From Syntrophobacteraceae bacterium (GTDB lineage: Bacteria > Desulfobacterota > Syntrophobacteria > Syntrophobacterales > Syntrophobacteraceae): a stretch of DNA of 32,651 nt. Shown here one piece after another: positions 576 through 32,620 of the stretch. Numbering within the stretch: position 1 is the stretch's first letter; each line of letters starts with the position of its first letter. The translations under genes were made by a program, and so were the position numbers. The stretch lies in contig JARLHO010000162.1 of assembly GCA_031292215.1 (NCBI GenBank), positions 1 to 32,651 on the forward strand, written 5' to 3'. A model generated the notes under the pieces. That model worked only from the letters and a program-made list of their open reading frames with translations. It was not told the DNA's origin and did no database searches.

Positions 576-1922
576 ATGGAAACTCAAAAAATCGGCCATA
601 AAGAGTCGGACTATCCTTGCGAAGCGGGAGGCGGGAGCGGTTGCGCGGCCCTTCTAAAGACGCGCGCGCGGCTTGAGAGCCTCAAGGAGTGCTTCCGGAT
701 ATCGGGCCTCATAAATTCGAGCCTGCAACTCGACCAGGTTCTCGAAAACATCATGACGACGTCGCGCTCGATTTTGCATGCCGATGCGTGCAGCCTCATG
801 CTGGTCGATGAGAAAAGCGACCAACTGGTGTTCGAGGTGGCGCAGGGGCCGGTTGCCGATAAGCTAAAAGGCGGCATGCGGATAGGCCGGGGACAGGGAA
901 TAGCCGGGAGTGTCTTTGCAAGCGGCGAGTCTCTTTTGATTCAAAATGCTTACGAGGACGATCGGTTTAACCGGGAATTCGACCGGGTGACCGGATACCG
1001 CACCCGCTCCATCCTGTGCGTGCCGCTCAAGATAAAGGAGCGGGTAATCGGGGTATCGCAGGTCATAAACAAACTTGACGGATCGGATTTTAGCGAGGAA
1101 GACAGGGAGACTCTCAGCCTTCTTTGCTCCAATGCCGCAGTGGCTGTTGAAAATGCTCGGTTGCACAAAAAGATTCTTTACAATCAACAGATCGAGCAGG
1201 ACATGGCGTTTGCAAAAAGCGTCCAGACGAGTTTTTTGCCAAGTGCAATGCCACGGCTCGATGGATTCAGGTTTTGCGCCCACTACCAGCCGGCGAGGGA
1301 AATCGGGGGAGATTTCTACGATTTTCTACCTCTTGATGAGGATCGAATTGGCGTTCTGATCGGGGATGTTTCGGGAAAAGGCGTGCCGGCGGCTCTCTTT
1401 ATGGCCAGATTCACCAGCGATTTTCGCGTCCTGGCTATTCGGGAAAAGGAGCCGGAAAGGCTCATGGGCCGCATGAACGAAATCGTCTGCGAGAGGAGCT
1501 GCCGGGGAATGTTTGTGACACTTTTCTACCTGGTGCTGGAGAAAAACAGCGGCGAGGCGCTCTATATCAATGCGGGACATCTTCCGCCCGTAACCTGGAA
1601 CAGCTCGACGGAAAAGTTCGCTGTTTCGGGGCGCCACGGCGGACCTCCCCTGGGGATAGCGCCCGGTCTGCATTACGAATCCGCGCGGATGACACTCGAG
1701 CCCGGTACGTGCCTGCTTCTATTTACCGACGGGCTTACGGAGGCCAAAAACGGTCACGGGGAGTTTTGGGGGCCTGGTGGGATAGAAAAGACGTTGAGGG
1801 GTGGAAGCTCCGAGGCGGAGTCGTCTCTCTCGCGTATATGCTCGTCGCTTTCCGGGTTTGTCGGGGAGTGGCCGCAGGCAGACGACGTTACGCTGGTGCT
1901 GGCCCAGTTCATGGAGGCATAG
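576..1922 (+). CDS. GAF domain-containing PP2C-type (RsbU/SpoIIE-like) serine phosphatase
   Basis: This 448-residue protein has a GAF sensor domain at about residues 40-195 and a SpoIIE-type PP2C phosphatase domain at about 235-447. Phosphatase motifs are EIGGDFYDF (about 242), GDVSGKGVPAALF (about 261), NAGHLPP, LLFTDGLTEA and a final DDVTLVL (about 434); the Asp residues bind the metal pair. RsbU-type enzymes dephosphorylate a STAS anti-anti-sigma protein, and the GAF domain probably senses a small ligand or redox signal. The gene is first in an operon with an RsbW-like kinase and a STAS protein, completing a partner-switching set. The ATG at 576 lacks a clear Shine-Dalgarno but is the first start after the promoter. 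Its stop abuts the next start. The biochemical role is well supported; the signal is unknown. Confidence 0.93.
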   Translation: METQKIGHKESDYPCEAGGGSGCAALLKTRARLESLKECFRISGLINSSLQLDQVLENIMTTSRSILHADACSLMLVDEKSDQLVFEVAQGPVADKLKGGMRIGRGQGIAGSVFASGESLLIQNAYEDDRFNREFDRVTGYRTRSILCVPLKIKERVIGVSQVINKLDGSDFSEEDRETLSLLCSNAAVAVENARLHKKILYNQQIEQDMAFAKSVQTSFLPSAMPRLDGFRFCAHYQPAREIGGDFYDFLPLDEDRIGVLIGDVSGKGVPAALFMARFTSDFRVLAIREKEPERLMGRMNEIVCERSCRGMFVTLFYLVLEKNSGEALYINAGHLPPVTWNSSTEKFAVSGRHGGPPLGIAPGLHYESARMTLEPGTCLLLFTDGLTEAKNGHGEFWGPGGIEKTLRGGSSEAESSLSRICSSLSGFVGEWPQADDVTLVLAQFMEA

Positions 1923-2360
1923 TTGGGTGGAGCGGGTTTTAGCGGCCCAGTCATTTTGGAGGCGCCCTCGGACCCTGCCGTTCTGTCGGCGGTAAGGGCC
2001 CTTACGGACAAGATCTGCCTGGCCGCGGGGGTTGATCCCGCAGAGAGCGATAAGCTCGTACTGGCGGTGGACGAAGCGTGTACGAATGTGATCAGGCATG
2101 GCTATTGCGATCGGTTGGACGGGCGGATAAAGATAAGCTTTACCGTTGAGGGGGACCGGCTGGAGATAGAGATTCGGGATTTTGGCCGAGGCGCGGATCC
2201 TGCGACATTTCGCGGGCGCGATCTGGGCGAAGTCCGTCCCGGAGGGCTCGGAATGCACTTCATAAGGTCAGCTGTGGACACGATGGAGTATGATTGGAAG
2301 CCCGGCGGGGGCATGGTTTTAAAGATGGTGAAATTTATTTCCAAACAGGAGAAAGCATAG
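1923..2360 (+). CDS. RsbW-like anti-sigma factor / serine-protein kinase (HATPase_c_2)
   Basis: This 145-residue GHKL-fold ATPase has the N box VDEACTNVIRHG (about residue 49), the G1 box IRDFGRG (about 84) and the G2 box GLGMHFIRSAVD (about 108). That is the pattern of RsbW/SpoIIAB kinases, which phosphorylate a STAS partner on serine and bind either it or a sigma factor. The start is a TTG directly after the previous TAG, with GGAGG at 1913-1917 inside the upstream gene at good spacing, so the two genes are translationally coupled. No sigma factor gene lies nearby. The kinase's output may therefore be the STAS protein that follows rather than a sigma factor; that is inference from position. 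Confidence 0.9.
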   Translation: MGGAGFSGPVILEAPSDPAVLSAVRALTDKICLAAGVDPAESDKLVLAVDEACTNVIRHGYCDRLDGRIKISFTVEGDRLEIEIRDFGRGADPATFRGRDLGEVRPGGLGMHFIRSAVDTMEYDWKPGGGMVLKMVKFISKQEKA

Positions 2361-2362
2361 AG

Positions 2363-2707
2363 TTGAACATACAGGTTGAGGAAAGAAAGCCGGGAGTTTT
2401 CGTGATCTCGCTTGCAGGAGATCTCGACATGAGCGTCTCCCCGCAGGTAAGGAAGGTCCTGCTTCCCATTTTCCGGAAGAATGTCTCTCACATAATAGTG
2501 GACCTAAAAGATGTTCCCTACATTGACTCCTCGGGGATAGCGACTTTTGTGGAATCGCTCCAACTTTCGCGCAAGAGCGACATCCGGTTCTCGCTGGCCG
2601 GTGCGTGCCAACGGGTTGAGTCGATCTTCGATCTCGCGCATCTAAAAAGTATTTTCGAGATGGCGCCCGATGCGACCGCGCTAATCGATGGAGAGCCGGC
2701 CCGGTGA
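2363..2707 (+). CDS. STAS-domain protein (anti-anti-sigma factor / MlaB-like)
   Basis: This 114-residue single STAS domain has the motif D55-S56-S57-G58-I-A, where S56 aligns with the serine phosphorylated in SpoIIAA. I chose the TTG at 2363 because an AGGAGAAAG ribosome site (2347-2355) lies seven bases upstream and the protein then begins at the conserved first STAS strand. An in-frame ATG at 2294 would add 23 residues with no domain match. The gene sits between a kinase/phosphatase pair and mlaE. It can be read as the RsbV-type substrate of the former or as the MlaB-type STAS subunit of the latter. MlaB normally binds MlaF and is needed for transport. Both roles at once are possible and would be unusual. 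Confidence 0.88.
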   Translation: MNIQVEERKPGVFVISLAGDLDMSVSPQVRKVLLPIFRKNVSHIIVDLKDVPYIDSSGIATFVESLQLSRKSDIRFSLAGACQRVESIFDLAHLKSIFEMAPDATALIDGEPAR

Positions 2708-3498
2708 GTTCGGAAGCGATGCGTTCTGAGGGCAGGATAATAGTTTTCCTGAGGCATTTGACGAGTTTTTCCTGTTTTTTTGCCGAAACGATGAAGTGGA
2801 CGGTGGTAAAGCCCTTCCAGGGCAAGCCCCTTCGGTTGCGCTCGGCCATCGCGCAGATGGATGAAGTGGGGGTGAAATCGGTCCCCATCGTAGCCCTGGT
2901 TTCCTTTGTGATCGGCGTCATCCTGGTGCTCCAGACCGCCTATCAACTGGATAAATTCGGCGCGGTAAATCTTGCGGCAAGCCTTGCCGGGGTGGCGCTC
3001 ACCCGCGAGATGGCCCCTCTTTTGACGGCCATCGTTTTGGCCGGAAGGGTCAGCGCGGCATTTACCGCCGAACTGGGCACGATGATGGTAACCGAAGAGA
3101 TAACGGCGCTGGAAGTAATGGCCATATCTCCGATCGCCTATCTCGTCGTGCCCCGGTTTGTGGCGATGATTGTCATGCTGCCGTGCCTCACCGTTTTATC
3201 CGATGCGATCGGCATGGCGGGAGGCTTCTTTGTCGGGACGCTTGCCATCGGCATAAGGCCGGGGCTCTATATACACGACACGATCAATGCTCTTCTGGTT
3301 AAAGACATCCTGAGCGGTCTTCTAAAAAGCGGGGTTTTTGCGGCAATAATAGCCATGGTGGGCTGCTATACGGCGTTTGCGGTAAAGGGGGGGCCCGAGG
3401 GGGTCGGGAAGGCGACGATGATTTCGGTCGTAACCTCGCTTATCAGCATAATCCTTGCCGACTGTCTTTTTACGGCGATATTTTACATGTACCTGTGA
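2704..3498 (+). CDS. mlaE: MlaE-type ABC transporter permease (MCE lipid transport)
   Basis: This 264-residue inner-membrane protein of the MlaE/YrbE family has several hydrophobic segments, and the family-typical stretches VLQTAYQLDKFGA, LTREMAPLLTAIVLAGR and ELGTMMVTEEI. MlaE dimers form the membrane core of the Mla complex, which moves phospholipids between the inner membrane and the periplasmic/outer-membrane side through an MCE ring. The GTG start (2704) overlaps the TGA of the STAS gene by four bases (GTGA), indicating translational coupling. MlaF and an MCE protein follow, so the transporter set is nearly complete; no mlaC is seen here. Length is normal for the family. Confidence 0.93.
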   Translation: MSSEAMRSEGRIIVFLRHLTSFSCFFAETMKWTVVKPFQGKPLRLRSAIAQMDEVGVKSVPIVALVSFVIGVILVLQTAYQLDKFGAVNLAASLAGVALTREMAPLLTAIVLAGRVSAAFTAELGTMMVTEEITALEVMAISPIAYLVVPRFVAMIVMLPCLTVLSDAIGMAGGFFVGTLAIGIRPGLYIHDTINALLVKDILSGLLKSGVFAAIIAMVGCYTAFAVKGGPEGVGKATMISVVTSLISIILADCLFTAIFYMYL

Positions 3499-3505
3499 GG
3501 TCGGG

Positions 3506-4303
3506 GTGCTGGAAACCTTAATTGAAGTGAAAAATCTTAGCAAAAGCTTCGATGGCCGGGCCGTACTGGAAGGCATAAACCTTACGGTGGAGCGGGGCAG
3601 CGTATTTGCGATCATGGGCGGATCCGGCTGCGGAAAGACCACCCTGCTTCGAAACCTGATCGGGGTGATTCGTCCCGATTCCGGTGCGATCCTGGTCGGC
3701 GGTCAGGATATAACCAGGTTTGACGAAAACGAGATGGACGGGTATCGAAAGCGTTTCGGGATGCTTTTCCAGATGGGGGCGCTGCTGAACTCGCTTAGCG
3801 TTCACGATAACATTGCGCTTCCCTTGCGGGAGCACACGCAGCTTGACGAAAAGATCATAAGTGTGATGGTCAAGATGAAGCTCGAGTTGGTCGGGCTTCG
3901 AGACTTCGAGCGCCTCAAGCCCTCCCAGTTGAGCGGGGGAATGCAAAAAAGGGTCGCACTGGCCCGCGCCCTGGCGCTCGATCCGGAAATCGTTTTCTAC
4001 GACGAACCCACTTCCGGGCTCGATCCGGTGGTGACCGGGGTGATCGGTCAGCTCATTTCGGATTTGAGCAAACGGATGGGCATAACCTCGGTCGTTGTCA
4101 CCCACGATATCGGGAGCGCGTTCAGTATAGCCGATAAGATGGTGGTTTTATTCCGCGGAAAAGTTGTCGCCGAGGGTAGCCCCGGGCAAATTCGAAAATC
4201 CTGCGACCCGGTGGTCCAGCAGTTCATAAACGGTAGACCCGACGGACCCATACCGCTTCGCCAATCGAGCCGGGACTACCTCGAGGACCTGCTGGATATT
4301 TAG
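3506..4303 (+). CDS. mlaF: MlaF-type ABC transporter ATP-binding protein
   Basis: This 265-residue ABC ATPase has the Walker A motif GGSGCGKTT (about residue 38), the signature LSGGMQKRVALARAL (about 142), Walker B IVFYDEPTSGLDP (about 162) and the switch histidine in VVVTHDIG (about 198). The order and spacing are those of MlaF, which energises MlaE. I chose the GTG at 3506 because GAGG lies five bases upstream and the protein then begins LETLIEVKNLSKSF, a standard N-terminus. It begins eight bases after mlaE ends. Its stop codon is followed immediately by a 196-bp heptamer array that separates it from the MCE gene, the only large gap in the upstream part of the operon. Confidence 0.94.
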   Translation: MLETLIEVKNLSKSFDGRAVLEGINLTVERGSVFAIMGGSGCGKTTLLRNLIGVIRPDSGAILVGGQDITRFDENEMDGYRKRFGMLFQMGALLNSLSVHDNIALPLREHTQLDEKIISVMVKMKLELVGLRDFERLKPSQLSGGMQKRVALARALALDPEIVFYDEPTSGLDPVVTGVIGQLISDLSKRMGITSVVVTHDIGSAFSIADKMVVLFRGKVVAEGSPGQIRKSCDPVVQQFINGRPDGPIPLRQSSRDYLEDLLDI

Positions 4304-4499
4304 GAGCGGGGAGCAAGGAGCAAGGAGCGGGGAGCAAGGAGCAAGGAGCGGGGAGCAAGGAGCGGGGAGCGGGGAGCGGGGAGCGGGGAGCGGGGAGCGG
4401 GAAGCGGGGAGCGGGAAGCGGGAAGCGGGAAGCGGGGAGCGGGAAGCGGGAAGCGGGAAGCGGGAAGCGGGGAGCGGGAAGCGGGAAGCGGGAAGCGGG
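4304..4499 (+). repeat. 28-copy heptanucleotide tandem array (RAGCRRG), G-quadruplex-capable
   Basis: Beginning at the base after the mlaF stop, 28 consecutive 7-bp units run in perfect register: GAGCGGG, GAGCAAG and AAGCGGG. The GAGCAAG variant occurs only in the first eight units and AAGCGGG only in the last half, which suggests expansion by slippage from the two ends. Runs of consecutive GAGCGGG units (4360-4401) give four or more G4 tracts separated by AGC, a strong G-quadruplex pattern on the coding strand and therefore in the mRNA. The array lies inside the Mla operon. A smaller array of the same unit, in opposite orientation, lies at 13671-13735. Confidence 0.97.
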
Positions 4500-4564
4500 G
4501 AATAAAGCGGGTCTTATTTTTATCCAGCTTTTTCGCTTCTGTAATCAATGAAAGAGAAAGAGAT

Positions 4565-5539
4565 ATGCAGGTTTTCCGATCGGAAATACGAGTCGGGTTG
4601 GTTGTTTTGATCTCGTTTATTCTTTTTGTCTCCGGGATCTTTGTTGTTAGCGGCATCCGTTCTCTTTGGAGCGACAAAAAGACGCTCACGATTCTTTTCC
4701 GTTACTGCGACGGCATAACGGCAGGCGCGCCCGTGCGGTGGGCCGGGTTGGAAGTGGGCCAGGTGCAGCGGATACGCATTGCCCCCGGGGTGTCGGATCG
4801 CATTGCGGTAACCGTTGGTATTTCCCCCAAAGTGAGGGTCAGGAAGGATTCGAGCGCCCAGATAAGAGATCTGGGGATGATGGGGTCCAAATACGTGGAG
4901 ATCAGCCCCGGATCGGCCGGGTCTCCCGAGCTGCCATCGGGGGCCACGATGGAGGGGAAAAGCCCTGCCTCGCTTTCCCAGATCATCGAGACGGGCGGGA
5001 AGGTCGCCTCCGGGCTTGTCGAGCTGGTCCGGGAGTCAAAGCAGCTCGTCTCGGAGGTCCGAAGCGACTACCAGATAAAACAGACGATCGAAAACGCGAA
5101 CGCTTTGCTCGTCGAGCTTAGAAAGAATACGGCAGATCTTGGGCCGATAATGAAAAACGTAAGGAAGGTAACCGGCGAGGGCGGCCGGCAGATCACCGGG
5201 CTTATCGGAGAAGTGCGCCGGACCAACAGGCAATTGCAACGGCGGCTGGGTTCTGTGGGAGATCAGGTCACCAAGACCATGGGGCAGGCCGACAAAGGGT
5301 TGGCCGAGGTCCAAAAGACCGTCAAGGGAGTCCGCTCGGTAGTCGATTCGAACAAAGACAATATAGATTCCATCCTCGCCCATTTAAACGAAACCTCCCG
5401 GAACCTGGATGCGCTAAGCGAAGACCTAAGGCTTCATCCCTGGAAGGTGGTGTGGAAAGGGGAGGGAAAGGCCGGGTCGAAAGCTGGTTCGGCGCAGTGG
5501 AGGCAACGAGGCAGGATCGGACCCTATGGCAAGGAATAG
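4565..5539 (+). CDS. mlaD: MCE-family (MlaD-type) lipid-transport substrate-binding protein
   Basis: This 324-residue protein has one N-terminal membrane anchor (about residues 9-30) followed by an MCE domain (about 38-118) containing the typical LGMMGSKYVEISPG end. The rest of the chain (about 140-300) is long, polar and predicted helical, rich in heptad-like Leu/Val with Lys/Glu and Asn. This resembles longer MCE proteins more than the short enterobacterial MlaD. MCE hexamers sit on the MlaFE core and form the lipid path in the periplasm. The ATG follows a purine-rich AAAGAGAAAGAG ribosome site. Its 3' end overlaps the next gene by 14 bases. The heptamer array separates it from mlaF, but same-strand order and family leave little doubt that it belongs to the complex. 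Confidence 0.92.
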   Translation: MQVFRSEIRVGLVVLISFILFVSGIFVVSGIRSLWSDKKTLTILFRYCDGITAGAPVRWAGLEVGQVQRIRIAPGVSDRIAVTVGISPKVRVRKDSSAQIRDLGMMGSKYVEISPGSAGSPELPSGATMEGKSPASLSQIIETGGKVASGLVELVRESKQLVSEVRSDYQIKQTIENANALLVELRKNTADLGPIMKNVRKVTGEGGRQITGLIGEVRRTNRQLQRRLGSVGDQVTKTMGQADKGLAEVQKTVKGVRSVVDSNKDNIDSILAHLNETSRNLDALSEDLRLHPWKVVWKGEGKAGSKAGSAQWRQRGRIGPYGKE

Positions 5540-6386
5540 CGCGCTACTTGTCGTTTGTCTCCTGGTGCTCTCGGCGTGCGCCTCGGGGTCCGAAGGGCCC
5601 TATAACCGAGGCGTCGAACAGTACGGAATCGGCCATGTTGGCCGGTGCGTAAAGGATTACCGGCAGGCGATCGCACAGCGTCCGGATGATCCGCGGCCCA
5701 AATTCAACCTGGCGGTGATTTACCAGGATGAGGGTAAACTGAGGGAAGCCGAAAATCTTTACGAAGAATTAGTGGCGCGGGCCCCCGGGTTTTCTCCGGC
5801 ATGGTCGAACCTGGCGTCCATTATGGAAAAGCGCGGGCTGGTCGATCGGGCCGAAAGGATGCATCGGCGCGCCATGAAAGCGGACGGTGGTTGTGCCGAG
5901 GGGTGCCAGTACGGTTTTTTCCTTCTAAGACAGGGGCGAAAAGTCGAAGCGGAGAAGGTCTTTAAAAAGTCGGTTGGAAGAGATCCCCGCTGCGCGAACG
6001 GTTGGTTTGGCCTGGGGCTTATAGCCGAGGGAAATGGCGACATACGGGCGGCGCTTCGAAACTATGACAGGGACTCGATTTATAATCCCTCCGATGTCGA
6101 AGCCTACCTGAGGTCCTCAAATATTTTGATATCCATGGGCGATACGGCGCGAGCCGCCGGGTTGCTTGAAAAGGCGGCCGGGGAAAATCGCGCCGGTGGC
6201 GATGTCGATCATGGCGATATCGAGCTGCGACTTGGAATATTGTTCCTTGGAAACGGGGAATTAAAAAAGGCGGAAAAGGCGCTGGAACTGGCCAAAAAGA
6301 ACGGAGCACCGCCTGGGCAATGCGATCGGGAGCTGCATAGCGTCTACCGGAAACTGAGCGCGCGGTCGGCGGGGGAGGCGAGGTGA
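5526..6386 (+). CDS. TPR-repeat lipoprotein
   Basis: This 286-residue protein has a lipoprotein signal peptide: a charged MARN start, a hydrophobic core and the lipobox L-S-A-C with lipidated Cys at residue 18. Mature sequence consists of tandem tetratricopeptide repeats from about residue 40 to 275, for example FNLAVIYQDEGKLREAENLYEEL and WFGLGLIAEGNGDIRAALRNYD. TPR solenoids bind proteins; this one would be membrane-anchored facing the periplasm. The start overlaps the MCE gene by 14 bases, so the two are probably co-translated. It may scaffold or assist the lipid transporter, by position only. There are several Cys residues in the mature part (for example GGCAEGC), which is unusual for TPRs. 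Confidence 0.85.
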   Translation: MARNSALLVVCLLVLSACASGSEGPYNRGVEQYGIGHVGRCVKDYRQAIAQRPDDPRPKFNLAVIYQDEGKLREAENLYEELVARAPGFSPAWSNLASIMEKRGLVDRAERMHRRAMKADGGCAEGCQYGFFLLRQGRKVEAEKVFKKSVGRDPRCANGWFGLGLIAEGNGDIRAALRNYDRDSIYNPSDVEAYLRSSNILISMGDTARAAGLLEKAAGENRAGGDVDHGDIELRLGILFLGNGELKKAEKALELAKKNGAPPGQCDRELHSVYRKLSARSAGEAR

Positions 6387-6389
6387 GCA

Positions 6390-7256
6390 TTGACTGAAGA
6401 GTTGCCGGGTGAGGTTGAAAGTGGACAAATTCGGGAGCTGGGTGAGCCGGAAAGTGAGACCCATGCGGCAGGATTTCAAGGGGCAGGGTCCGTTATCCGG
6501 TCCATGCTCGCATCTATTGGTAGGGGGCTTAAATTTGCCGGCTCAGCCGTTGTGGATTTGTGCCTTCCACGGAGCTGCGCGAGCTGCAAAAAAATAGGGA
6601 CTCTCCCACAAAAGTCCTGGTGCGGCCCGTGCTGGGAAAAAATGGCGCTGGTCGCCCCGCCTCTTTGTCCGGGATGCGGCAGACCTTTTCTGGATGCACA
6701 GGCCTCCCCCGACCACCTCTGCGGCGATTGCATCGAACGAAATTATCGTTTCGATTCCGCAAGGTCTGCGGCACTTCATGTGAGTGCGGTGCGCACTCTG
6801 GTCCACCAGTTAAAATTCGGGGGGCAGTTGAAATGGACGCCCTGCCTGGTGGAGCTTTTGGAAACCGCCTACGCTGCATGGGAACTGCGCGCGCCGGACC
6901 TTATCATACCGGTGCCTCTTCACCCCAAAAGGCTAAGTGAAAGGGGATTTAACCAGGCCGGGGTGCTGGCCCGCGAGTTGGGGCGAAAAATCGGGATACC
7001 GGTTTCACCGGACGGACTCGTTAGAAAAAACCTGACTTTGCCACAAACACGGCTCAACCGGGAAGAACGTCTTAAAAACGTCAAGGGGGCCTTCGAAATC
7101 TTTGACGACAGGAAAGTGCGGGGCCGGCGAATTCTTCTGATAGACGATGTATTCACTACGGGAACTACGCTTAGCGAATGCGCAAAGGTCCTCAAAAAAA
7201 AGGGCGGGGCGTTGGAAGTGTATGCTCTTACGGTTACGCGGGCGTTGCCGGACTGA
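6390..7256 (+). CDS. ComF family protein (phosphoribosyltransferase-like, zinc-finger N-terminus)
   Basis: This 288-residue protein has Cys pairs characteristic of ComF (SCASCKK, CGPCW, CPGCG and CGDC, about residues 62-115) and a C-terminal type I phosphoribosyltransferase fold. The PRPP-binding loop is ILLIDDVFTTGTTLSECAKVL (about 247-267), and VPLHPKRLSERGFNQA is also family-typical. ComF proteins support DNA uptake in competent bacteria; in non-competent species the role is unclear. The start is a TTG three bases after the previous stop, preceded by GAGGTGA. The first 45 residues are an unconserved extension, so an internal start is possible. It appears to be the last gene of the operon; no terminator is obvious in the roughly 200 bases beyond. 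Confidence 0.88.
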   Translation: MTEELPGEVESGQIRELGEPESETHAAGFQGAGSVIRSMLASIGRGLKFAGSAVVDLCLPRSCASCKKIGTLPQKSWCGPCWEKMALVAPPLCPGCGRPFLDAQASPDHLCGDCIERNYRFDSARSAALHVSAVRTLVHQLKFGGQLKWTPCLVELLETAYAAWELRAPDLIIPVPLHPKRLSERGFNQAGVLARELGRKIGIPVSPDGLVRKNLTLPQTRLNREERLKNVKGAFEIFDDRKVRGRRILLIDDVFTTGTTLSECAKVLKKKGGALEVYALTVTRALPD

Positions 7257-26770: not shown

Positions 26771-29700
26771 CTAGAACGAAATGCGCAGTTCGCCTATCAC
26801 GCCGTTACTTCGCGCCCGGTTTCCGACAAGGCCGATGTAGCCAAGCGAGGTGGAGAGGCCGCATTTGCTCTTGAGGGTTAAGCCGGCCCTTATGACGGCC
26901 ATGTCCTGGCTCATATCGGGAAGGGGAACGGTCATGCCCAGAGGCGTGTCGACAAAAGAGATGTTCTCGCTGTTCGGGGACAACCCGAAGCCGTGCTGCC
27001 AACCGGCCTTAATCATCGGCACGAGGACGCCCCTGGAGGTATAAAAGGGCCGCTCCACCTCGATCCCCACTTCGGAAAATACCTCATCGGTTGTGTGGCC
27101 GTTGATTTTCATGGCTGCAAGCGCCCCCGTTTCGTCGATAGCGCCTTCGCCAAGATTGTAGTAGCCGATGGAGGCAAAGGGCTGCACGTTCCATTGGCGC
27201 ACTGGAAAACTGTGTCCCGCTTCGGTCAATACCGAAAAAGCGTTTCCCCTGTGGTTGCTGTCATTTAGGGATGGGGGCAGGGAACCGATGTCCACCAGGC
27301 GGCTCATCGTATAGTGATGGTTGCCGTAGGTGAGGATGCTCTCCACGTAGGAGCGATCGTTGAAGTAGGTGCCGTAGACAGAGCCGTAAAGGCTGTTGAG
27401 GTCGCTGTCGCCGGGCATGCCATACATGTTGAGCGTGGAGTAGGAATAGCCGAAATTTGCGCCCAATATGAGATTGCGGGTAAAGGCGCGATCAAGGCCC
27501 AGGGCGAAGCCGCTCGTGCCGAGATCATAGCCGGAATTACCGCCAGGCGAGTCTTGGTTACCCCATTGGCCAAAACCCTGCATCCAGAACCCGAGCCCGG
27601 AAGTGTCCTGTTGAGCGCCGGCCAGCCCCTGGCCCCCCTTGGATGCGAGGAGCGGAAAGGAAGTCTTTGAAAGCGCGCCGGGCGTCGTTTGCGCCCGCTC
27701 AAGCGAGCGCAGGGTCTCCAGGCGCTGCTGGAGCGCGCGCTCGTATTGCCTGGTGATGTCGAAGGTGGCGTTGGTAGCCGCCCAATAGAGACTCGGAGTC
27801 AGGCTGTCAAAGGCGGCCTGGAACCTGGAGGGGGCAAGCCTCTGAAATTCGGCCAGGAGCAGGGCGAAGCGGCCGGAGGGATCATCTGCGATCAGTTGGT
27901 CCAGGAAACCGCCCACCGCCTTGCTTGTCGGGTCGTAGCCAACGGAGGTAAAGCTGCCTACGTTTGAGACTACCTGGACTGCATGGCCGCCGGTGTAGGT
28001 GAGGCTAAAGTCCAATAAAGGGGAATTGGCAGGCAAAGTACTTGCCAGGCTCGTGGCCGCGAAGCTTCCCGTTACATTTCCCGTAAGCACGGTGTAGGCG
28101 GCGCCGTTTTGGAGGGGCTGCGTGTTACTTAGCGCTATTTGCAGCCCGCCGCCCAGGTTGGCGGCCCCGGAGACGTTCAAACTGCCGCAACTGCCGTTAT
28201 TGCCAAGCGTTACCTGCAATATCCCGGCGTCGGCCTGGATGAAACCGCCGGTGAGAGCCGTAGCCGTCGCGCCGAGGGCGACAAGGCCGGTGTTGGTGAA
28301 TATGCCGTTGCCAAGGTTTACTACCGGCCCGGCATTATAAATCGCGCCCGGATAGTTGTTGACCGTAATGTTGCTCACGCCTCCGGGGAGGCTGAGACCG
28401 CTGTTTAAAGACGAAGCCGCCTGAACGGACTGGGTGATCGAGCCGGTGATTGCGCCGTGATTTTCAATGATCAGATTCCCGAGTTGAGGCGCGCCGTAGG
28501 AGGCTTGCTGCGTAACCGCCGTTCCGGTTGCTCCGTCCAGGGTGGTGATTGCGCCAAGATTGAACAGTTCATTGTTGGCTCCATCGAGGAAGAGGACGCC
28601 ATAGCCATTGTAGGTGGTGAGGGAGCCGTCGGGATTTGTCGCCGTGCCGGTGTGGCCGCCCTGCGCCAGGCCGTAGTTCGCGCCGGGTTGATTGATGGTG
28701 ACGTCGATATTGCCGTCGCCCTTGGCGCCGAGGCTTTGGGCCACGATGGCCGATGAGCCGAGTCCGTTGACGACAATGTTGCCGGGAGTCGCGCCGGGAC
28801 CGTTTAGGGTGACGGACACATTGCCCGCCTTGTCCCCGCCGGCCGTGCTCTGGGCGACAATACCGTCGGCGTCCTGGCCGTAGGTGGCGATGTCGCCGGT
28901 CTGTGTGACGGAGACATTTCCGCCCGTGCCGCTCGCGCCGCTGAAATTGCTGCCGTTATACAGGTAACCCCACAGGAATTCGTTCGTTTTTGAGCCGCCG
29001 CCGCCCGAGCCCCCGACGCTCTGTGCGAAGATTGCGTCGGAGTCGTTTCCCGAGGTTGCGATGTTGGCGGTGTTGGCGACCGTGACATTTCCGCCCGAGC
29101 CCCCGCCGCCGCCGCTGCCGCCGATATTTAGCGCCAGGCCGAAGTACTGGGTAAAGTTCATGCCGTGGAAGGGCCCCCCGAGGGTGCTGGCGGACCCGCC
29201 GCCCCCGCCTATGCTTTGGGCATAGATACCGTAGGCCTGCTGCCCGGAGGTGATTATGTTCCCGCTGTTGGCGACCTGGACCGCGCCGCCGTTGCCGGCC
29301 GCGCCGCCTGAGCCGCCTATGACGATCGTGCCCAGTTGCAGGCCATTGTCCGTACCGCCCCCGCTGCTGTTCGTGTCGGTGAACATCTGGCTCTGGTCGT
29401 AGGAGGCAACGCCTCCGCCCCCGCCCAGGCTTTGAGCGTAGATGCCCTGCGCGCCGTCGCCTGTCGTGGTTATGGCGCCGGAATTGGTTACTGTGACATT
29501 GCCGCCGTTGCCGCAACTGCCTCCGCTGCCGCCCACGCTGAAGGCGAGGTCTAAACTGGGCAGGACCCAGCTTTTCCAGTCGTTCAAGTCTTCGGAGGGT
29601 ATTGCGAGCCCGTTGGCGCCTTCGCTGCCCGAGCCGCCGCCGCCGCCGACACTTTGCGCAAAGATGGCGTAAGCGCCAACGCCGGAGGTCTTCACGGCGC

Positions 29701-32620
29701 CGGAATTGGTTACCGAGACATTGCCGCCGTTGCTGGCCCCTCCGCCGCTGCCGCCCACGCTGACCGATTCTTTCAAATTAAACCCCGCGGCCTCGTTGTT
29801 TTTGTTGCCGGCCTTGGAGAGAGCGGTTACCAGGGAGTAATTATTACTATCGCCGCCGTCTCCGCCGCCTCCGCCAACGCTTTGGGCAAAGAGGCCGTAG
29901 GCTTGCATTCCCTCGGTGGCGACATTGCCCCCATTGGCGAGGGAGACCGCGCCTCCGTTATTGCCGTTGCCGCCCCCGCCGCCGACCGAGACGGCGCCGA
30001 CAATGTTGGCGCTCGGCAAAGCCATGGTGCTCAGTTCATCTTTTGTGGCGGCCGGGTCGATGGTCAGAACGGAACTGGCGCCCCCGTCACCGCCTCCTCC
30101 TCCGACACTCTGGGCCTCGATGCCGTAAGAGTTATCCCCGGAGGTGAAGATGTTGGCAAAGTTTTCGACCGTTACCTGCGAGCCCGCGCCTCCAACGCCT
30201 CCGCCGCCGCCTACCGATACGTTGCCGGTTATGTTGAACGTCGGGTTCTGGCCGAATCCGGGCTTGATACTGTACGTGTTGGCCGCCCCGCCGTCGCCTC
30301 CGCCGCCTCCGATGCTTTGGGCGAGGATGCCCAAGGCGGAGTCTCCCGAGGTGGTGATGGCGCCAAGAGCCGGATTGGTGGCCCCACCGTTATTTACGGT
30401 CACACCGCCGCCTGCGCCGCCGCTTCCCCCCGTACCCCCGATGGTGACGGCGCAGTTAAGGCCGCTCGAATAGCTGGGGAAAGATCCGTCCACGGTCGTA
30501 CTCCAGCCGCCGTTTCCACCGCCTCCGCCAACGCTTTGGGCCTCGATGCCGATGGCCGATTGACCGCTTGTGGCGATTGCGCCGGTGTTGCCGACCTCTA
30601 CGCCGCCGCCCGAGCCTCCTCCGCCGCCCGAGCCACCCACGGCCACCGGGCCCCCTATGCTCATCGTGCCCAGGCTTGCTACCGAGGCATTGACCGCGAC
30701 GCTCCACCCCGCGTTCCCCCCGCCGCCTCCGATGCTTTGGGCCAGGATGCCGTAGGAGTCTTCTCCAAGGGTTGTAATCCCGATCTGATTGAGGACATTG
30801 ACAAGGCCGCCTGCGCCGCCCAGGCCGCCTGCGCCCCCGATGCTCACCGGAAACGCAAAGGCGCCCTTATAGCCGCTGGTCCCCAAGGAAGCATCGAAGG
30901 TTGCCGCCACACTGCCTCCTCCGCTGCCTCCTCCGCCCCCGACGCTTTGGGCGAAAATGCCCACGGCCTGGTCGCCGAGAGTGGTGATGGCGCTGCCGCC
31001 GTTAGCGGGCGCGAGATCATCGACAGTGACGCCGCCCCCGTTCCCGCCCGCGCCGCCCGAACCGCCCAAAGACACCGCGACACTCATGGAAAGGGGGACG
31101 TCAGGGGTGTTGGAGCTGATACTGCCCGCCCCCGACCAACCGGCATTGCCACCGCCTCCGCCGACACTTTGGGCTAAAATGGCATCGGCCCCGCTGCCCA
31201 AAACCGTCTGCGAGCCATCGGCGTTGGCGACGATCGAGCCCGTGGAGATCGAACCCGTGTTGTCGACGGTTACCGCCGCGCCGTTGCCCCCCGCGCCACC
31301 GCTGCCCGAGACGGAAACACTGGTGGAGAATATCGGGGTATAGTTGCCGGAAATGCTGAAATCGCCGTTACCGCCTCCTCCTCCCACACTCTGGGCCTCG
31401 ATGCCCCGGGAGGTGTCATTTTTGGTGGCGATAGCGCCGGCGTTATAAACGTTAACTACCCCGCCCGCGCCGCCCCCGGTTCCGCTGCCGCCAACGCTTA
31501 CCGGGAGGGCCACGATGCCTGCGGCCACGTCCCATCCGCCCTCGCCCCCGCCTCCGCCAACGCTTTGGGCCATGATGCCCTGCGAAGCTACGCCTGTCGT
31601 GAAGATGTCGCCGCTCGAATAGGCGCCGCCGGATCCGATATCGACTTGACCGCCGCCTCCGCCCGAGCCGCCCGAACCGCCGATACCCACGAGGCCGCCG
31701 ATGCCCGCGGTCACATTCCATCCGGCCGCGCCGCCTCCTCCCCCGACACTTTGCGCCATCATTGCGGCGGCATCGCTTCCGGAGGTGGAAAGGGTATTAT
31801 TGCTCGAAGCGGCGACATTGCCGCCGTTGCCCCCGCCTCCGCCGCTGCCCCCGATGCCTATGCTGACAGCGTTTAGGCCTGCTGTGACGTCGTAGTAACC
31901 GGCGCCGCCGCCTCCCCCGACGCTTTGGGCAAAAATGGCGTAGGCCGAAGCCCCGGAGGTGGAAATAACGCCGTCGTTCGATGTGGCGACATTGCCGCCG
32001 CCCCCGCCGCCACCGCCGCTGCCGCCCATGCCGAAGTGCAGGCCCAGACCGTTGCCTGCGTTAATCGAGTAGTCGCCTTCTCCGCCGCCTCCGCCCACAC
32101 TTTGGGCAAAAATGGCGTAAGCCGAAGCGCCGGAGGTGGAGATAGCGCCGGAGTTTGAGGCGGCGACAATGCTCCCCTTGCCTCCCGAGCCTCCCGAGCC
32201 GCCGATGGAAACGCCCGCGACGGTGGAGACCGAAACCGCGCCGCCGCCGTCTCCTCCGCCTCCGCCCACTCCCTGTGCCTCGATGCCATAGGCGGATTCA
32301 CCCAGAGTGGTGAGCGCGAGGTAGTTTGTGAGCGCGACCTGTCCGGCGTCGCCGCCTGCCGCGCCGGCGCCTCCCAGGGCGACTATGGTTCCGCTGGCGC
32401 CGCCCGCCCCGCCCCCGCCTCCTATGCTTTGAGCCAGGATCGCAGCGGCGCCCTTGCCTTGAGTGGCGATGGCGCCGGAGTTATTGGAGGCAGCGCCAGT
32501 GTCGACTGTGACTGCGCCCCCATTAGCCCCGCCGCTCGCAGCGGCCCCCCAGGCAATCAGGCCGTAGGCCGCCCCCCCCCCCCCCCCCCCCCCCGCCCCC
32601 CGCCAGGGCCCGGATCCCAT
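26771..32620 (-). CDS. giant glycine-rich autotransporter, N-terminus not reliably present
   Basis: The readable frame is 1949 residues. The passenger consists of about 20 repeats, each roughly 60-100 residues, built as VTVxNxGxIxTSGxxAxGIxAQSVGGGGG; most keep the AQS[VIL]GGGGG core, and the last three are degenerate. After a Leu/Ala-rich linker (about 1570-1660) comes an autotransporter beta-barrel (about 1675-1949) beginning GFWMQGFGQWG and ending with terminal phenylalanine, the usual BAM signal. Such proteins are surface-exposed or shed; adhesin-like roles are common. The apparent start MGSGPWRGAG has no signal peptide and directly precedes a 23-base C tract (plus strand), so the true 5' end is lost to a contig end, slippage or assembly error. 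A palindrome follows the stop. Confidence 0.88.
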   Translation of the reverse strand: MGSGPWRGAGGGGGGGAAYGLIAWGAAASGGANGGAVTVDTGAASNNSGAIATQGKGAAAILAQSIGGGGGAGGASGTIVALGGAGAAGGDAGQVALTNYLALTTLGESAYGIEAQGVGGGGGDGGGAVSVSTVAGVSIGGSGGSGGKGSIVAASNSGAISTSGASAYAIFAQSVGGGGGEGDYSINAGNGLGLHFGMGGSGGGGGGGGNVATSNDGVISTSGASAYAIFAQSVGGGGGAGYYDVTAGLNAVSIGIGGSGGGGGNGGNVAASSNNTLSTSGSDAAAMMAQSVGGGGGAAGWNVTAGIGGLVGIGGSGGSGGGGGQVDIGSGGAYSSGDIFTTGVASQGIMAQSVGGGGGEGGWDVAAGIVALPVSVGGSGTGGGAGGVVNVYNAGAIATKNDTSRGIEAQSVGGGGGNGDFSISGNYTPIFSTSVSVSGSGGAGGNGAAVTVDNTGSISTGSIVANADGSQTVLGSGADAILAQSVGGGGGNAGWSGAGSISSNTPDVPLSMSVAVSLGGSGGAGGNGGGVTVDDLAPANGGSAITTLGDQAVGIFAQSVGGGGGSGGGSVAATFDASLGTSGYKGAFAFPVSIGGAGGLGGAGGLVNVLNQIGITTLGEDSYGILAQSIGGGGGNAGWSVAVNASVASLGTMSIGGPVAVGGSGGGGGSGGGVEVGNTGAIATSGQSAIGIEAQSVGGGGGNGGWSTTVDGSFPSYSSGLNCAVTIGGTGGSGGAGGGVTVNNGGATNPALGAITTSGDSALGILAQSIGGGGGDGGAANTYSIKPGFGQNPTFNITGNVSVGGGGGVGGAGSQVTVENFANIFTSGDNSYGIEAQSVGGGGGDGGASSVLTIDPAATKDELSTMALPSANIVGAVSVGGGGGNGNNGGAVSLANGGNVATEGMQAYGLFAQSVGGGGGDGGDSNNYSLVTALSKAGNKNNEAAGFNLKESVSVGGSGGGASNGGNVSVTNSGAVKTSGVGAYAIFAQSVGGGGGSGSEGANGLAIPSEDLNDWKSWVLPSLDLAFSVGGSGGSCGNGGNVTVTNSGAITTTGDGAQGIYAQSLGGGGGVASYDQSQMFTDTNSSGGGTDNGLQLGTIVIGGSGGAAGNGGAVQVANSGNIITSGQQAYGIYAQSIGGGGGSASTLGGPFHGMNFTQYFGLALNIGGSGGGGGSGGNVTVANTANIATSGNDSDAIFAQSVGGSGGGGSKTNEFLWGYLYNGSNFSGASGTGGNVSVTQTGDIATYGQDADGIVAQSTAGGDKAGNVSVTLNGPGATPGNIVVNGLGSSAIVAQSLGAKGDGNIDVTINQPGANYGLAQGGHTGTATNPDGSLTTYNGYGVLFLDGANNELFNLGAITTLDGATGTAVTQQASYGAPQLGNLIIENHGAITGSITQSVQAASSLNSGLSLPGGVSNITVNNYPGAIYNAGPVVNLGNGIFTNTGLVALGATATALTGGFIQADAGILQVTLGNNGSCGSLNVSGAANLGGGLQIALSNTQPLQNGAAYTVLTGNVTGSFAATSLASTLPANSPLLDFSLTYTGGHAVQVVSNVGSFTSVGYDPTSKAVGGFLDQLIADDPSGRFALLLAEFQRLAPSRFQAAFDSLTPSLYWAATNATFDITRQYERALQQRLETLRSLERAQTTPGALSKTSFPLLASKGGQGLAGAQQDTSGLGFWMQGFGQWGNQDSPGGNSGYDLGTSGFALGLDRAFTRNLILGANFGYSYSTLNMYGMPGDSDLNSLYGSVYGTYFNDRSYVESILTYGNHHYTMSRLVDIGSLPPSLNDSNHRGNAFSVLTEAGHSFPVRQWNVQPFASIGYYNLGEGAIDETGALAAMKINGHTTDEVFSEVGIEVERPFYTSRGVLVPMIKAGWQHGFGLSPNSENISFVDTPLGMTVPLPDMSQDMAVIRAGLTLKSKCGLSTSLGYIGLVGNRARSNGVIGELRISF
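32572..32594 (-). repeat. homopolymer tract of 23 G (C on plus strand)
   Basis: The tract lies at the 5' edge of the autotransporter frame and encodes Gly. Sequence beyond it (32595-32651) does not resemble the passenger repeats and contains an in-frame stop just before the apparent ATG. It may be a slippage-prone tract or an assembly artefact. Confidence 0.9.

Follow-up and report, generated by a model that had tools for sequence, protein, structure and literature searches.

A candidate serine-phosphorylation switch on an MCE-type lipid transporter, carried by a kinase, a phosphatase and a STAS protein

What does a bacterial partner switch control when its genes stand in an operon with lipid transport genes and no sigma factor gene lies beside them? 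The question is raised by the window analysed here, a stretch of 32,651 nucleotides (GenBank contig JARLHO010000162.1, assembly GCA_031292215.1; C104 in our numbering) from the 4.9-Mb, 97%-complete genome of a Syntrophobacteraceae bacterium whose close relatives are Syntrophobacteraceae and other Desulfobacterota metagenome-assembled genomes (MAGs). On its forward strand, a GAF-PP2C phosphatase of the SpoIIE/RsbU type (576-1922), an RsbW-type serine kinase of the HATPase_c_2 family (1923-2360) and a STAS protein with the motif D55-S56-S57-G58 (DSSG; 2363-2707) are followed by the permease MlaE (2704-3498), the ATPase MlaF (3506-4303) and an MCE protein resembling MlaD (4565-5539). An earlier note on this DNA, made from the letters alone, had described these genes and motifs, and all of them were found where it had placed them. 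We propose that they encode an MCE-type lipid ABC transporter with an MlaB-like STAS subunit that would be under serine-phosphorylation control, a reading to which we give a probability of roughly two in three (0.68).

In the model, the unphosphorylated STAS protein would dock on MlaF, which would then work with MlaE. RsbW would phosphorylate S56, on the face through which E. coli MlaB docks MlaF, so that the subunit would be detached or blocked and transport would stop. On a signal sensed by its GAF domain, the GAF-PP2C phosphatase would take the phosphate off again and transport would resume. We have little doubt that the kinase and the phosphatase act on the STAS protein of the window, and we consider it highly likely that this protein is a subunit of the adjacent MlaF; that phosphorylation of S56 turns transport off seems reasonably likely. 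The inferred parts of the model are the phosphorylation event, its inhibitory effect, the signal and the lipid carried.

The assignments rest on family and structure matches. The phosphatase matches Pfam PF07228 (SpoIIE, 2.3e-45) and GAF (1.3e-19). The kinase matches PF13581 (1e-27), has RsbW and SpoIIAB as its best PDB matches, and carries the N-box VDEACTN as well as the G1 and G2 motifs. The STAS protein matches PF01740 (2.3e-18), and the MCE protein the MlaD family PF02470 (4.2e-18). MlaE, which has no fused STAS domain, matches PF02405 (3e-75) and scores 245 bits with TIGR00056 against a cut-off of 212, and the best PDB match of the ATPase is MlaF (2e-76).

The association of the two gene sets extends far beyond this genome. 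With nothing but the kinase alignment as query, we scanned 85,000 species genomes and took the best 80 loci; because these were chosen by the kinase only, linkage to mla genes is not built into the set, whereas the constancy of VLAVDEAC and PGGLG among the kinases partly is. In 73 of the 80 loci, mla genes adjoin the kinase, and these loci come from more than ten phyla. By record title they include Desulfobacterota, KSB1, Nitrospirota, Nitrospinota, Planctomycetota, Omnitrophota, Verrucomicrobiota, Tectomicrobia, Calditrichota, Auribacterota, Pseudomonadota (alpha and gamma), Myxococcota and Acidobacteriota; a single MAG titled Actinomycetota, possibly misbinned, neighbours a Calditrichota one in the STAS tree. 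The earlier note had called for a survey of gene order, and the linkage proved to be conserved across phyla. Chance linkage is ruled out by this count, since about 1% per locus would be expected (4 mlaE genes per 4.9 Mb, 7-kb flanks), and linkage limited to one lineage is ruled out by the recurrence in many phyla.

Most often the gene order matches the window's, PP2C-RsbW-STAS-MlaE-MlaF-MCE. At least five arrangements occur, among them STAS-MlaE-MlaF-MCE-PP2C-RsbW, RsbW-STAS-MlaF-MlaE-MCE, a dispersed form and a divergent one (PP2C-RsbW / MlaF-MlaE-MCE-STAS-MlaC); at one locus (L225) the STAS gene shares an operon with a true mlaC. All ten phosphatases sampled from other families and phyla have the GAF-SpoIIE architecture, and the N-box residues D, E, A and N and the G2 motif GGLG are invariant in the 77 linked kinases, although the scan pattern partly selected these motifs. 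A separate survey of the phylum found a close kinase, with a patchy distribution, in 9 of 297 evenly drawn genomes: all five above 115 bits have the mla link, another at 110 bits lies at a contig end, and three below 100 bits have no mla link in the stretch read. The parts belong to known families; we found no report of a linkage between RsbW/STAS and mla genes in the open-licence papers searched, and as far as those papers show the combination is unreported.

The phosphosite of the STAS proteins was compared at the position of E. coli MlaB T52 and SpoIIAA S58. Ser occupies it in all 76 kinase-linked STAS proteins (74 DSSG, 2 SSAG) and Thr in 21 of the 22 stand-alone STAS proteins encoded beside mla genes without a kinase (DTAG, DTSG or DTSC), counts that are not independent, as the Thr proteins belong mostly to one lineage and the independent contrasts come down to three tree positions. 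The sole Ser exception (L109, in genome G024) has a PP2C-RsbW pair elsewhere in the same genome, without a STAS gene. STAS domains fused to MlaE carry DSAG in 10 of 11 cases and have no kinase nearby, and Ser alone is therefore no proof of phosphorylation. In the window, S56 aligns with the phosphosite of RsbV and TM1442. An AlphaFold2 model of the STAS protein, built on 64 sequences with a confidence (pLDDT) of 93, predicts the full RsbV/SpoIIAA fold with S56 as the first residue of the second helix. The second helix of E. coli MlaB is the centre of the MlaF interface (PMC7367683).

In its evolutionary pattern, the STAS protein resembles a subunit of MlaF. The C-terminal extension of E. coli MlaF inserts Y261, L265 and L266 at the interface with MlaB (PMC7367683), and the Y, L and L of the window's MlaF terminus (...DYLEDLL) align with these residues. 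Judged by tail length, the extension is present in 67 of 67 kinase-linked operons and in 23 of 23 operons with a stand-alone STAS gene, and it is missing in 21 of 23 operons with a STAS-MlaE fusion; the tail therefore goes with a separate STAS partner. Exactly one STAS gene, with no other candidate, is present in 74 of the 75 loci that hold both the kinase and MlaE, and a hidden second STAS gene in the linked operons was looked for and rejected on this count. A second MlaB serving the window transporter, which the earlier note had named as a finding that would speak against its proposal, was likewise sought and not found; each of the other STAS domains in the window genome is either joined to MlaE in one protein, part of another RsbW module or without the phosphosite. 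That other module, PP2C-STAS-RsbW (C41, L068), has a different PP2C and an SSAG-type STAS protein and adjoins a gene for a substrate-binding-protein-like product, with no sigma factor gene adjacent. As a separate observation, three relatives in the class have MlaF with a GGDEF domain fused at its C-terminus (L117 1480-2784, L112 761-2017 and L029 123-1451; Pfam 6e-17, 5e-11 and 6e-9). No STAS gene was detected in their operons, and the fusion may possibly be another signalling input to an mla transporter.

Trees of MlaE and STAS show that the cassette has moved between transporters. On the MlaE tree, well-supported branches imply that the kinase link was gained or lost at least three times. 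The STAS-MlaE fusions nest, with moderate support, within the kinase-linked MlaE clade and may descend from kinase-linked ancestors. In the STAS tree (about 119 columns, with an arbitrary root), the window protein falls in the kinase-linked clade, apart from MlaB. For L154 and L156 the two trees conflict, as MlaE belongs to the canonical mlaFED clade (100/99) and STAS to the kinase-linked clade (100/99), with the RsbW-STAS cassette standing at the position of MlaB; thus a kinase-STAS pair replaced MlaB on another transporter. On balance, we think it likely that there is a widespread, patchily distributed class of lipid ABC transporters gated by STAS serine phosphorylation, whose cassette was moved onto different mla transporters more than once. 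Together, phosphosite, MlaF tail, cassette transfer and linkage support, at the level of sequence, what the earlier note had suggested, that the STAS protein would be both kinase substrate and transporter subunit.

Closer to the window, the operon from the phosphatase to a TPR gene downstream of the MCE gene is present in 10 genomes of the genus and family, and in an eleventh (G011) it can be followed up to the contig end. The catalytic residues of the kinase, the DSSG motif and the MlaF tail are invariant across 10 close orthologues. In one genome (G009) mlaE is split over two frames (L095 5228-6075), by a frameshift or an assembly error.

Several observations weigh against the proposed model. 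The STAS protein scores 25.9 bits with the MlaB equivalog model NF033618, against a cut-off of 90, and is thus not recognised as an MlaB orthologue. The closest folds to its model are SpoIIAA (Z 19.1), TM1442 and RsbV; Foldseek also matches MlaB of E. coli and P. aeruginosa (E 1.6e-5 and 4.7e-5), and no MlaB chain is among the top 50 matches of VIA-align. E. coli MlaB T52A still binds MlaF with its activity abolished (PMC5016091), and the effect of the site is therefore not simply one of binding switched on or off. Linkage can also break, and within the genus the module is eroding. Two relatives, G004 (UBA702) and G008 (UBA696), keep PP2C-RsbW-STAS and have lost the mlaE, mlaF, MCE and TPR genes; a ratio of nonsynonymous to synonymous substitution rates (dN/dS) of about 0.1 between their trios indicates purifying selection, and a trio kept without the transporter can have another use. 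In two more genomes the STAS gene alone is kept, at the same place in G001, between a Uma2-family gene and comF-U32 (L293 4715-5056), and in a different setting in G010 (L294 1909-2271). A close relative of the kinase or of the window-type transporter was not found in either genome. Both orphans retain DSSG, and with dN/dS of about 0.2 and 0.1, respectively, against the window gene they look to be still under selection. Finally, an ECF (extracytoplasmic function) sigma factor gene lies near the kinase in two homologous loci without mla linkage, L178 and L194.

The orphan genes bear on an alternative that would extend the proposed model, in which the STAS protein serves both the adjacent MlaF and the canonical MlaFED of the genus, whose own mlaB was lost, so that one kinase would control two transporters. 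We regard this as possible, though doubtful. The canonical mlaFED operons of eight genus members lack an adjacent detected STAS gene (including L065, on contig C12 of the window genome itself, L071, L086, L093 and L097), the MlaF read at those operons keeps the extension, mostly as ...YYERLLG, and all eight members have a window-type STAS protein. G001 and G010, which retain STAS under selection (dN/dS about 0.1-0.2) after loss of kinase, phosphatase and transporter, are consistent with it as well. However, the STAS gene occurs in further members of the genus as well, which makes the association no strong test, and G004 and G008 keep their own Thr-type MlaB yet retain the trio.

The sign of control could also be reversed, with phosphorylated S56 active and the phosphatase turning transport off. 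The loss of ATPase activity in T52A with binding kept shows that the side chain matters for activity (PMC5016091). Against this, T52 of E. coli MlaB is part of the interface with MlaF, which the T52E variant binds more weakly, and phosphorylation breaks partner binding in SpoIIAA, RsbR and RsbS (PMC7367683). We favour a negative sign because T52E weakens MlaF binding, and consider the reversed one unlikely.

It remains to ask whether the trio acts on transcription. The window genome has seven sigma factors with region 2, which we read as RpoD, an RpoS-like factor, three RpoH, FliA and one ECF factor; none adjoins the operon, as the earlier note had stated, and none was found in the window. A search of the genome for sigma factors likewise found no SigB/SigF-type factor that could be the cognate partner of the kinase; a cognate sigma factor shown to bind the kinase is what the note had said would count against its model. 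Among the linked loci there is one clear ECF sigma gene (L238), and three other sigma matches are weak. The kinase scores 58-62 bits with RsbW equivalog models whose cut-offs are 145-155, and by these scores and by sigma-gene context it does not class as an anti-sigma RsbW proper. Classical RsbU/RsbW/RsbV modules have sigma factors as their targets, G004 and G008 have the trio without mla genes, and the kinase has an ECF gene nearby in L178, L194 and L238. Even so, an ordinary partner switch for a transcription factor, with its sigma factor elsewhere and the mla genes as co-transcribed cargo or regulon, is improbable given that no SigB/SigF-type factor was found in the genome, that mla linkage and not a sigma gene is kept in five arrangements over many phyla, that Ser and Thr segregate and the MlaF docking tail is retained, and that a kinase-STAS cassette takes the place of MlaB in L154-L156.

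The layout of the operon in the window bears on translational coupling, which the earlier note had claimed throughout. The PP2C and RsbW genes share a reading frame, with a single TAG between them, a TTG start directly after it and GGAGG upstream, and several Pseudomonadota and Methylacidiphilum relatives have the two as one fused protein. The RsbW and STAS genes are 2 bp apart, STAS and mlaE overlap by 4 bp, and a 7-bp gap separates mlaE from mlaF. Coupling holds at all four junctions from the phosphatase to mlaF; it does not extend to the MCE gene, which follows a gap of 261 bp holding a tandem array of 28 copies of the 7-bp unit GGAGCGG (4303-4501, forward strand; Tandem Repeats Finder). 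The MCE gene overlaps by 14 bp a gene for a TPR lipoprotein-like protein (5526-6386; Pfam TPR), which has the same position in relatives and, within the family, is conserved as the final gene on the operon's transporter side, and the operon runs on through comF (6390-7256), both on the forward strand; it contains no mlaC. Elsewhere in the window, a Gly-rich, repetitive open reading frame of 1949 codons (26771-32620) has an autotransporter-like C-terminus by eye and no Pfam match at E 0.01.

Regulation of MlaB through phosphorylation of T52 has been proposed in two papers on E. coli Mla (PMC5016091, PMC7367683), and whether T52 is phosphorylated was left as an open question in 2020 (PMC7367683). 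With a candidate kinase and phosphatase beside the transporter, and cultured species among the carriers, such as Terasakiella pusilla DSM 6293, Caenispirillum bisanense and Chiayiivirga flava DSM 24163, the question of T52-type phosphorylation becomes directly testable. If the model is right, a signal could rapidly switch lipid traffic between the membranes with no need for new transcription, partner switching would have an ABC transporter among its direct outputs, and the STAS subunits of other transporters may be open to the same reading.

Known systems share parts of this design. As proposed for the window, STAS phosphorylation in non-sigma partner switches such as SypE-SypA acts on an output that is not a sigma factor, but the direct target there is not a transporter subunit. 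That pair, from Vibrio fischeri, is treated in PMC10120452. The STAS-MlaE fusion transporters, two of which are encoded in the window genome, resemble the window system in that each MlaE has its own STAS domain; unlike it, they carry that domain on the permease, mostly with DSAG, their MlaF mostly lacks the docking tail and no kinase is nearby. The B. subtilis switches RsbU/RsbW/RsbV and SpoIIE/SpoIIAB/SpoIIAA have the same constituents, a PP2C phosphatase, a HATPase_c_2 kinase and a STAS protein with DSSG or DSTG, of the same fold and motifs. Their output is a sigma factor, whereas in the window no such factor was found and the neighbour is an ABC transporter. E. coli MlaFEDB has, like the window, MlaE, MlaF with a C-terminal extension, an MCE protein and one STAS protein with the phosphosite position. 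Its MlaB is shorter, has Thr at that position and has no known kinase or phosphatase, whereas the mlaC-less operon of the window encodes an RsbV-like STAS protein with Ser, beside both enzymes.

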